DNA of 64,000 nt from Methanobacteriales archaeon HGW-Methanobacteriales-1 (GTDB lineage Archaea; Methanobacteriota; Methanobacteria; Methanobacteriales; Methanobacteriaceae). Positions 58,178-61,986 of the stretch are shown here, in pieces; positions within the stretch are counted from its first letter, which is position 1, and every line of letters starts with the position of its first letter. The notes under the pieces were generated by a model. It did not search any database, was not told the DNA's origin, and was given only the letters and a program-made list of their open reading frames with translations. Position numbers and translations under genes: made by a program. Where the stretch lies: NCBI GenBank assembly GCA_002839705.1, contig PGYO01000004.1:124001-188000 (forward strand). The letters are read 5' to 3'.

Positions 58178-58195
58178 TAAGAACGAACGTTAGTT
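58178..58195. promoter_or_regulatory. TetR-type operator copy B (kinase/tetR region)
   Basis: TAAGAACGAACGTTAGTT, reverse complement AACTAACGTTCGTTCTTA. The first 14 positions match the palindrome perfectly. It lies directly before the tetR TATA box (TTTATATA, 58195-58202) and in the upstream region of the kinase gene. Confidence 0.65.
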
Positions 58196-58202
58196 TTATA
58201 TA
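58195..58202 (+). promoter_or_regulatory. TATA box of tetR
   Basis: TTTATATA is the archaeal consensus. Transcription from about 58225 would begin inside operator C. With operator B abutting the box on the other side, the regulator would block its own promoter twice. Confidence 0.6.
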
Positions 58203-58223: not shown

Positions 58224-58241
58224 TGCGAACGAGTGTTAGTT
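58224..58241. promoter_or_regulatory. TetR-type operator copy C (tetR start site)
   Basis: TGCGAACGAGTGTTAGTT, reverse complement AACTAACACTCGTTCGCA. It shares AACTAAC and CGTTC with copy B at the same spacing (13 of 15 identical), and covers the predicted tetR transcription start, 27 bp before the ATG. Confidence 0.62.
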
Positions 58242-58267
58242 AGTAGATTAAATTTCAGGTGAAAATT

Positions 58268-58897
58268 ATGCCATCACAAAAATCAATCAAACCAACCAAG
58301 GAAAAAATATTCGATGTTTCCATCGACCTTTTCTCAGAAAAAGGATTCGACGCCGTTTCAATCCGAGAAATAGGCCGAGGAGTGGGAATAAGAGAAAGCT
58401 CCATTTACAACCATTATTCCAATAAAGAGGCCATACTAGATAGTATTCTCGATTTCTTCATTAAAGAAATGGAAGATACTGGCATTCCTGAAGAACAAAT
58501 GGAAATACTACTGGAGCAAAGTCCGGAAATGTTCTACCATGCCGGGTCCAAAATGTTTGAAGAACGCATGCATGATCCTAAAATGATTAAAATATGGAGA
58601 TTATTGCTAATTGAAATGTACCATAATCCCAAAATCAAAGAATTCTTTTTAAAAGAATTAATAGAAACACCAATCCAGGCCTGGACCTTAATATTCTCAG
58701 CAATGATAGAAAAAAAGATCATAAAACCAGTCAATCCTGAGAGATTGGCCCGAGAATATTTTAGCTATGCCATCTACCTCTTAATTGAAAATTTCGTGCT
58801 GAAGTACCCTAACAATCCAGAGAAGTTCCTGCGCGAAATGTTCGATGATATGGAAGAACACATGCAATTCATTCTAAACAGTGTTAAAATCGAATAA
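58268..58897 (+). CDS. TetR-family transcriptional regulator
   Basis: About 209 residues. N-terminal helix-turn-helix 'IREIGRGVGIRESSIYNHYSNKEAIL' is the TetR DNA-binding signature; the C-terminal 140 residues are an all-helical ligand domain. GGTGA precedes ATG 58268. Palindromes B and C lie in its promoter and A lies before the SnoaL/glycosylase operon, so autoregulation plus local control is the likely role. The ligand is unknown. The DUF116 pseudogene begins 10 bp after its stop. Confidence 0.92.
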   Translation: MPSQKSIKPTKEKIFDVSIDLFSEKGFDAVSIREIGRGVGIRESSIYNHYSNKEAILDSILDFFIKEMEDTGIPEEQMEILLEQSPEMFYHAGSKMFEERMHDPKMIKIWRLLLIEMYHNPKIKEFFLKELIETPIQAWTLIFSAMIEKKIIKPVNPERLAREYFSYAIYLLIENFVLKYPNNPEKFLREMFDDMEEHMQFILNSVKIE

Positions 58898-58907
58898 AGA
58901 TGATAAA

Positions 58908-60075
58908 ATGGAAACCATAACCTACAATCTCCAATACAGAAGAGGAGACTGTTATAAAAAAATCAAAAGGTTCACCCCAGAAGTTCTCCAAGCATTAAAA
59001 GGATTTATTGATTCTCTGGTTAATGAGTTTCAATCATTCACACAATCGAGCTATAAAAAGAATCCCCCAAAAGAAGAATGTATTTTTGAAGCATTGATGT
59101 TAGGGATTTTCTGGAATAACTACTCATCAAGATCTTTAAAACTGGATGAACGACCTCAGAAATTATTATCAAAACTTTCCACTCTGAGAAATGAAATTTC
59201 ATCCTTAAAAGAAGAAATAGATGATGTGCGTGGATTAATGGCCACCATGTTCCTTTCAGATAATAATTCCAGTTATGGTTCCAACTATGATATTCTAAGT
59301 GAATCCTTTGAAATGGCAGAATTAACTAAAGAAAATCTAAAACTTCTATTAAAATGGTTAGAAGCAACAGAAGATTATGTTCAAGAATTAAAGCACTTAG
59401 AAATCTGGAAAGAATTTTTAAATCAAAAATCAGAAGAAGAATTTGCCTTGGATCTTACCAGCATCTTGATGTTTGCCGACTGGTTTCAAGAAACTGCCTG
59501 TAAAAATCTAAGTCAGTACAGATTATAAGTAAACAATTTCCTTGATGAAAAACTAGGTGACCATATTGATAAAGAAGACCTAATATTTTGTGGGAGAAAA
59601 CATGTTGAATATCATTTAAGCATGCTTGGAGCCGAGATTATGAATCTTATTTTCGAGGCGAATTTGAAAAACGACCTAGAAAGGCAATGCTCATTCCAGG
59701 ATGCATGATGTATCAAAACACATCATGCCAGGCCATTGAAGAAAATTTAGGGTTAAAATGCTCAATGTGTCAAAATAAATGCCCAGCAGCATTAATTACC
59801 AAAAAAGGCCGTGAGGAAATTTTGAGGTTTATATTATATCTCATGAATCAAGTGCATTTTCCCAAAGCACCCCCGAAGATAGAAATGAACTGGCCATTTT
59901 AGGAGTGGCTTGTGTTTCTAATTTAATATCGGGAGGATGGAAATCTGACTCCATGGGAATACCAGCACAGTGCGTTGTGTTGGACTATGTGGGATGTCAG
60001 AACCACTGGCAGGAATAGGGCTTCCCTACTGAAATTAATCAAAATGAACTGGAGAAAATATTAATCTATGAATAG
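58908..60075 (+). pseudogene. DUF116-type protein disrupted by two stops and two frameshifts
   Basis: The intact first part encodes about 206 residues (METITYNLQYRRGD...). Reading past TAA 59526-59528 gives 'VNNFLDEKL' and 'GRKHVEYHLSMLGAEIM'; after a one-base loss near 59645, 'YFRGEFEKRPRKAMLIPGCM' and 'CSMCQNKC'; after another near 59820, 'FEVYIISHESSAF' and 'SGGWKSDSMGIPAQCVVL'; then GCQNHWQE and TAG (60016-60018) before the end at 60075. The Cys pattern and the final Q-x-x-x-L...GC..HW motif fit DUF116. The N-terminal fragment may still be made. Confidence 0.85.
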
Positions 60076-60146: not shown

Positions 60147-61049
60147 ATGATATTAGATAAAATAGATAGTTTAAAATCGAAATATGCAGATTATCGACTT
60201 AATAAAATAAATAAATTGGAAATGAGATTAAATAAAGTTCCTGGAGCAGTTTCAGCTTCTAGTAATTCACCTGAAAAGAAAATGCCTGACAAGCTCAAAA
60301 TTACATTAAAAACTCTCCCTAAGCAACTTTCCATTGCTAAAAACATGGAAAAAACCATTAAATCATTAGATGAAAATCCTGAAAATCCCAAAATGCACAT
60401 GGATTCAAAATTTAAGGATGAATTTGAAAATTATGCAATTTCATTGGGAATAAATAAAATTGGATATGTGGATGTTCCTTCTGATTTAATATTTCAAGAT
60501 AGATCCATTTTATTTAAAAAAGCCATTGTATTGACCATGGAAATGGATGAAAATGCCGTAAATATGGCCCCCAGCCCACAAACTCAGGAAGATGGAATCG
60601 TAACCTATGACGAATTAGGTAAAAAAACCAACTTCTTGGCCCAGTATCTGCGAGAAAATGGTTTTTCATCACACCCCAGTCATCCAGCAGGAGGATTAGT
60701 GGTATACACCAAATTAGCAAAAGAAGCCGGACTGGGAAATATTGGAAGACATGGATTACTAATAACTCCAGAATTAGGGCCTAGACAAAGAATATCTGCC
60801 CTGTTTATAAGTGCAGAAAATCTACCTGACACCTCATCTGAGGCCCATCTGTGGATTAGTGAATTTTGTGCGAGTTGTGGTAAGTGCATAAAAAAATGCC
60901 CCGGCCAAGCTATTGTAGAAAAAAATACTCCTCAAGGATTAAAAACAAAAATAATTACTGATTTATGTCATGGGTGTACCATCTGCATGAAAGAATGTAG
61001 TTTTAACCAAGTTGGATATCATAAAATAGAAAATAATTTCCATTCCTAA
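60147..61049 (+). CDS. 4Fe-4S protein of the QueG/reductive-dehalogenase-like family
   Basis: 300 residues. After a basic, helical N-terminus come 'KFKDEFENYAISLGINKIGYVDV', 'LTMEMDENAV' and 'AGGLVVYTKLAKEAGLGNIGRHGLLITPELGPRQR', the last with the family's flexible substrate loop. Two 4Fe-4S clusters are formed by CASCGKCIKKCPG and CHGCTICMKEC. Related to epoxyqueuosine reductase and reductive-dehalogenase-like ferredoxin proteins; no B12 motif is obvious. The substrate is unknown. GGTG site upstream. It follows the pseudogene and precedes a flavoprotein, suggesting redox function. Confidence 0.8.
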   Translation: MILDKIDSLKSKYADYRLNKINKLEMRLNKVPGAVSASSNSPEKKMPDKLKITLKTLPKQLSIAKNMEKTIKSLDENPENPKMHMDSKFKDEFENYAISLGINKIGYVDVPSDLIFQDRSILFKKAIVLTMEMDENAVNMAPSPQTQEDGIVTYDELGKKTNFLAQYLRENGFSSHPSHPAGGLVVYTKLAKEAGLGNIGRHGLLITPELGPRQRISALFISAENLPDTSSEAHLWISEFCASCGKCIKKCPGQAIVEKNTPQGLKTKIITDLCHGCTICMKECSFNQVGYHKIENNFHS

Positions 61050-61209: not shown

Positions 61210-61986
61210 ATGAAAATGAAAGTATTAGCAATAATAGGGAGTCCTAGAAAAAGAGGAAATACATATCAGGCCACTCAAGAACTGGAAAAAGAAATGCAGA
61301 AACTGGGTGATTTTAAATTTGAATATCTCTTTTTAAAAGATACCCATCTGGAAATGTGTAGCGGATGTTTTAACTGTGTGAGTCGCGGAGAAGAACTTTG
61401 CCCATTAAAAGATGACCGCGAAGATATTGAAAAGAGAATCTTAGAAGCAGATGGGGTGATTTTTGCGTCACCAGTGTATTGTCAAATGATTAGTGGCTTA
61501 ATGAAAAATTTCATTGATAGATTTGCATATCTTTTCCATAGGCCCGCCTTTTTCCAGCAAAAAGGCCTGGCACTTTGTACTACGGCAGGTTCTGGTATGA
61601 ATGAAACTCTAAAATACCTGGAAACATTACATATATGGGGTTTTGGGAAAATGAATAAGTTAGGAATCATTATTCCACTATGGCCTATGAGTAAAGGTTT
61701 GCACAAGAAAAACCAGAAGAATATGAAAAAAACAGCCCATAAGTTTTACAAAGACTTGAAAAAAGGCGGTTTGGCTCGCCCTACATTCACCGAGTACATT
61801 CATTTCCGTTTTATGAAATTTACCTCCGAGATGGGAGATTACTTGCCGGCCGATCATGAATTTTACAAAGACAAGGACATTTATTTTTATCCGCTTAAAA
61901 TAAGTCCTTTTAAAAGGATTATGGTTACTATAATGATGAAAATAGTTTTATTTTTAATGAGAGACCTGGGGCCGGCTAAAAATTGA
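61210..61986 (+). CDS. Flavodoxin-like NADPH-dependent FMN reductase
   Basis: About 258 residues. FMN loop GSPRKRGNT (near 11-19), CSGCFNC motif, 'FASPVYCQMISGLMKNFIDR' second flavin motif and 'CTTAGSGMNETLKYL'. The C-terminal 70 residues (about 190-258) are a basic/hydrophobic extension (MTIMMKIVLFLM) that might touch the membrane. GTGATTCAC precedes ATG 61210. It is probably a partner of the upstream Fe-S protein. Confidence 0.85.
   Translation: MKMKVLAIIGSPRKRGNTYQATQELEKEMQKLGDFKFEYLFLKDTHLEMCSGCFNCVSRGEELCPLKDDREDIEKRILEADGVIFASPVYCQMISGLMKNFIDRFAYLFHRPAFFQQKGLALCTTAGSGMNETLKYLETLHIWGFGKMNKLGIIIPLWPMSKGLHKKNQKNMKKTAHKFYKDLKKGGLARPTFTEYIHFRFMKFTSEMGDYLPADHEFYKDKDIYFYPLKISPFKRIMVTIMMKIVLFLMRDLGPAKN

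Follow-up and report, generated by a model that had tools for sequence, protein, structure and literature searches.

The window analysed here, a stretch of 64,000 nucleotides from Methanobacteriales archaeon HGW-Methanobacteriales-1, holds a regulator gene, the remains of another gene and two intact genes behind them, all on the forward strand. The regulator gene tetR (58268 to 58897) is intact and encodes 209 aa from the ATG at 58268, a GTG at 58259 being also in frame; it carries a TetR DNA-binding domain (TetR_N, 8.1e-13; PF00440, 48.4 bits, cut-off 24). Its promoter has a TATA-box-like TTTATATA (58195 to 58202), read in the sequence and matched by similar upstream regions in relatives. Two putative TetR operators accompany it: AACGAACGTTAGTT (58182 to 58195), directly before the TATA box, whose role is suggested by its conservation in relatives, and AACGAGTGTTAGTT (58228 to 58241), a palindrome-like site of conserved pattern between the TATA box and the start codon. 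The broken gene starts with an ATG at 58908, 10 bp after the tetR stop codon (TAA 58895-58897), the spacing also given in the earlier note. It extends to 60075 and, judging by its frames, Pfam and a family profile, is the pseudogene of a long DUF116 protein with a helical N-terminal part and a C-terminal DUF116 Cys-rich domain. Behind it lies an intact Fe-S protein gene (60147 to 61049), possibly on the same transcript, whose product has a C-terminal 4Fe-4S pair and distant, sub-threshold matches to reductive dehalogenase and QueG. The gene for an NADPH-dependent FMN reductase (PF03358 by Pfam; 61210 to 61986) is also intact and starts at GTG 61201 or ATG 61210. Divergent from tetR lies a sensor kinase gene that forms one 612-aa frame.

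Four lesions interrupt the DUF116 gene: two stop codons and two reading-frame changes. Its first frame covers 206 codons (58908 to 59525) and ends in an in-frame TAA at 59526-59528; past this stop the same frame keeps a protein-like sequence as far as about 59650. The reading then moves to a second frame from 59651 (FRGEFEKRPRKAMLIPGCM...CSMCQNKC) and, from 59815, to a third (GNFEVYIISHESS...GCQNHW); this last block contains an in-frame TAG at 60016-60018 ahead of the natural end of the gene, TAG 60073-60075. The 206-residue frame, the TAA, both frame changes and the later TAG had been described before, and all were re-read directly in the window sequence.

The DUF116 identity proposed from the letters alone is borne out by two kinds of match. 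The Pfam model PF01976 scores 35.1 bits against the C-terminal part, over its curated (gathering) cut-off of 25; taken singly, the third block reaches 28.5 bits and the second 16.6 bits, under the cut-off. A profile built from nine long DUF116 proteins, with 382 model positions, matches three blocks of the window in order, over positions 3-285, 244-298 and 300-382, with E values of 8.6e-70, 8.6e-13 and 1.1e-36. Since all pieces fit this single profile in order, a mosaic gene, the less likely alternative of the earlier note, is not supported and was rejected. According to the nine-protein alignment this is a single long protein, in which a helical N-terminal region precedes a DUF116 part with eight invariant Cys. 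No Pfam or NCBIfam family reaches its cut-off against the first 206 residues; a search with them found matches in 12 of 60 genomes: the window's own, that of a sister species (G001, below) and ten more, whose open frames measure 341-557 aa.

How far has the decay gone? In an alignment of 54 of 60 candidate rows, the one used for the fold, the window's frames still show 20 of 21 invariant residues, every invariant Cys among them, and keep 26 of 28 near-invariant columns; of the 58 columns invariant in the nine-row family alignment they keep 52. Because 20 of the 21 residues invariant in the family are still readable, the decay of this gene is judged recent, and the loss of the long DUF116 gene in the window's genus likewise appears to be recent. 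A profile search of the window's genome found no intact second copy of the long gene; a separate, intact DUF116 gene of 250 aa is present.

Comparison of three species genomes of the genus, the window's (G000), G001 and G002, shows the same locus in different states. In G001 the flanks on both sides are 91-93% identical to the window. Aligned base by base, its DUF116 gene shows small changes of length early on and a further one near the end, and 324 bases of the Cys-rich core (window about 59661-59984) are missing. Of the four window lesions, three lie where G001 allows a comparison, and G001 has none of these; the fourth falls in the part deleted there. Behind tetR, G002 retains no more of the DUF116 gene than its last codons, after which the Fe-S gene comes, and a long-DUF116 profile search of that genome gave no match. 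An intact copy of the long gene is present in none of the three genomes, and intact copies with the same stops, looked for in relatives, were not found. The three sisters thus read as three stages of loss at the same place: point lesions, partial deletion and near-complete deletion. The dN/dS of the DUF116 remnant between the window and G001 is 0.32, and the three species pairs give 0.095, 0.12 and 0.099 for tetR; intact long DUF116 pairs give 0.31 (G027-G018) and 0.06-0.10 (three Methanobrevibacter pairs). The ratio of the remnant, though above that of tetR, is therefore no sign of relaxed selection on its own. The G001 sensor kinase gene divergent from tetR is in two frames (L020 10883-12722), and the kinase position beside tetR in G002 holds two other long kinase frames, of 728 and 684 aa. 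The Fe-S gene behind tetR is intact in the window and in G001; in G002, where it follows tetR, it has a frame change that leaves a 208-aa open frame versus about 300 (L046 6316-6942).

Taken together, 58908-60075 is very probably a recently inactivated long DUF116 gene, the second gene of an old Methanobacteriaceae tetR-DUF116 operon. The earlier reading as a real pseudogene is upheld by the two in-frame stops and the frame changes, by the other lesions in G001 and by the disappearance of the gene from G002. Could errors of assembly or base calling make an intact gene look broken? These are draft assemblies, in any one of which a single lesion may be an error; two of the four window lesions are frame changes, and the G001 kinase and G002 Fe-S genes nearby are frame-changed as well. 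However, the other two window lesions are stop codons, and the window's genes for TetR, the Fe-S protein, FMN reductase and polysaccharide pyruvyl transferase are uninterrupted. G001 has different lesions and lacks 324 bases, and in G002 the gene is absent from this place. With three species at three stages of loss and no working copy among them, sequencing error is hard to accept as the explanation, and it is very unlikely.

Nor is it at all probable, if perhaps slightly less far-fetched, that the cell still produces and uses the first 206 residues as a shortened protein, the product of a split or truncated functional gene. The start codon, the spacing to tetR and the 206 codons are kept, and the dN/dS of the remnant is below 1, but the N-terminal part is broken after about 50 codons in G001 and absent in G002, and the conserved Cys all lie outside it. 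Recoding, by frameshifting or stop read-through, would yield the full DUF116 protein and would suit the survival of 20 of 21 invariant residues across the lesions. Yet it would take four events in one gene, the three comparable places are not common to G001, which has lost part of the Cys-rich core, and 26 of the 27 unfragmented family copies need none; its probability is close to nil.

Any DUF116-profile match is found in 52 of 138 Methanobacteriaceae genomes, 22 of which have an ordinary short DUF116 alone (at most 55 bits). Long DUF116 occurs in 30 of the 138: 26 copies are stop-free, one has a single in-frame TAA (G011) and three are fragmented, those of the window's genome, G001 and G103. 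In Candidatus Methanorudis spinitermitis the long gene has one in-frame TAA and is otherwise readable (L028 9408-10862 / L080 3995-5440). Among the 27 copies that are not in pieces, a TetR of the same subfamily lies directly upstream in 21, one radical-SAM gene separates the two in five, and the remaining copy begins at a contig start. Because all 26 unfragmented copies with upstream sequence follow this TetR subfamily, tetR-DUF116 is best regarded as an old operon of Methanobacteriaceae with the long DUF116 gene in second place, and the same pairing supports the suggestion that DUF116 was the co-transcribed partner of the regulator. Carriers include Methanobrevibacter, Methanosphaera and Candidatus Methanorudis. 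The long protein is also found in Clostridia, Paenibacillus and a few others without this TetR, so tetR-DUF116 would be an archaeal operon built on a protein of wider distribution. Among 67 loci scanned, the 51 from outside Methanobacteriaceae contain no TetR of the subfamily (best score 31 bits, L095), and a bacterial TetR-DUF116 pairing was rejected on that count. Four genomes (L022, L025, L028, L050) have a NifH-like gene behind the DUF116 gene, either immediately or after one intervening gene. One NifH-like protein, tested with NF009702, NF033200 and TIGR01287, is over the cut-off for the nitrogenase reductase-like and cofactor F430 synthesis reductase models and below it for nifH. A nitrogenase link for DUF116 was dropped, as it is not general.

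What kind of protein has been lost? The predicted model of an intact long DUF116 relative (pLDDT 91, pTM 0.92) has an all-helical N-terminal part of about 250 residues and an alpha/beta C-terminal part. Foldseek against the PDB with this model returned nothing at E <= 0.001, none of Foldseek's best chains reached a Z of 5 in VIA-align, and a sequence search of the PDB gave one match, at E 0.66. Type II dehydroquinase was tried as a fold relative and set aside, the VIA-align score being a weak Z of 3.6 over residues 252-387. NCBIfam models matched neither of two intact long DUF116 relatives. An earlier genome-context study (PMC5898192) predicts that DUF116 proteins act in electron transfer and adopt a flavodoxin-like fold. 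The family treated there (DUF116, arCOG02078, COG1852, PF01976; for example MMP0162) shares the C-terminal Cys-rich domain with the long type, whereas its members are described there as having two N-terminal membrane helices in place of the all-helical region that the model gives the long type.

The regulator has fared differently from the gene behind it. Both sister species have an intact tetR, 91-92% identical to that of the window, and the low dN/dS values of all three pairs point to purifying selection. A genus-specific operator pattern, with one mismatch allowed, has two sites in this genome, both at the tetR promoter. In the subfamily at large, a match to CNAWCNNNNGKTAG lies in the 200 bases upstream of 114 of 116 tetR loci, against 0.16 expected after shuffling; seven short or cut loci, omitted from the TetR tree as well, and two with fewer than 200 upstream bases had been left out. 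The pattern was derived from 30 loci and then counted; the GNAT/FMN-type loci, which were not used in the derivation, are positive in 49 of 49 cases. Two sites, overlapping matches included, are present at 86 of the 116 loci, and a site abuts a TATA-like hexamer at 55. The window's operator 2 alone meets the strict pattern, operator 1 being off by its first base; no own-genus locus (0 of 3) has a site abutting the hexamer, because the first site of each falls outside the strict pattern. Since palindromic sites are conserved at the tetR promoters of the subfamily, autorepression is well supported by sequence, and the window's TetR is a putative autorepressor. A relaxed operator-TATA pattern matched 27 times in G000, versus 33 for a reversed control, so no further TetR targets are claimed there. 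In G002, an extra operator-TATA-operator cassette lies just upstream of the tetR promoter (L046 5393-5459) and another before a DUF998 gene beside rubrerythrin (L288 1501-1560); the DUF998 genes of G000 and G001 have none.

The genes behind TetR were surveyed across the 138 family genomes at 121 loci, the number left of 125 after removal of four cut copies of others. Long DUF116 comes next in 21 and after a radical-SAM gene in 5; a radical-SAM gene with no long DUF116 in the next two genes follows in 37. GNAT and then FMN reductase stand behind TetR in 31, GNAT is fused to TetR and followed by FMN reductase in 15 (L186, L187 and L235 among them), and FMN reductase follows directly in 4; the own genus accounts for 3, and other genes or contig ends for 5. 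A radical-SAM protein (for example L101 2817-3893) is the commonest single gene type in this position, at 42 of 121 loci. In a TetR tree of 61 of 118 rows, with every third row of the radical-SAM and GNAT sets, the GNAT/FMN type forms one side of a branch (100/99), as do the three own-genus sequences (100/99); the long-DUF116 and radical-SAM labels are mixed, and several deep branches are long and unsure. The survey and the mixed labels together suggest that long DUF116 came and went while the switch stayed. With Fe-S and FMN reductase genes behind the broken DUF116 gene, the TetR switch may still serve these two in the window's genus.

These observations are compatible with a model in which TetR is an autorepressor that would bind a pair of CTAAC-N4-GTTAG-type sites flanking its TATA box and, without its signal, keep the operon off; upon induction the downstream redox gene would be made. 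Once the DUF116 product was no longer needed in the genus, its gene would erode, leaving TetR to control mainly itself and the rest of the transcript, here perhaps the Fe-S protein and the FMN reductase. The proposal that the regulator's former target was lost therefore stands in part: the DUF116 gene is dead, but TetR is not clearly purposeless, because its putative operators are kept, its dN/dS is 0.095-0.12 and it is followed by two intact genes of the same orientation. One-component autorepressors of the TetR family likewise combine a TetR_N domain and palindromic sites at their own promoter with an effector gene behind; here, by contrast, an archaeal TATA box lies between the sites, and different lineages have different genes behind the regulator. 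The window's TetR reached the cut-off of no NCBIfam TetR equivalog. Gene erosion has been described in Methanobacteriota, with most pseudogenes in arthropod-gut lineages (Microbiome 2026, PMC13135261); the relevant passages of that paper mention neither this operon nor a TetR. A literature search on DUF116, TetR in methanogens and Methanobacteriaceae pseudogenes, with most subscription papers outside its reach, yielded one relevant paper for DUF116 and, among the papers listed, nothing on this TetR family.

In itself, the DUF116 pseudogene is ordinary gene loss, whose value lies in showing one operon gene at three stages of its loss beside a regulator kept in all three sisters; the TetR/operator family would be the more interesting by-product. 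The balance tips slightly towards an undescribed Methanobacteriaceae TetR family that is autoregulated, shares a TATA-straddling CTAAC-N4-GTTAG operator code and commands interchangeable redox payloads: long DUF116, radical SAM, GNAT with FMN reductase, or Fe-S protein with FMN reductase. These payloads would turn over while the switch is kept, as with the G002 cassette before a new gene (DUF998), and one of them, long DUF116, has a confident predicted fold for which the searches found no solved relative. The Fe-S, radical-SAM and flavin payloads point to redox chemistry. Follow-up of a pseudogene has thus exposed a putative family-wide TetR/operator system of methanogens, whose purpose is perhaps redox or oxidative stress.
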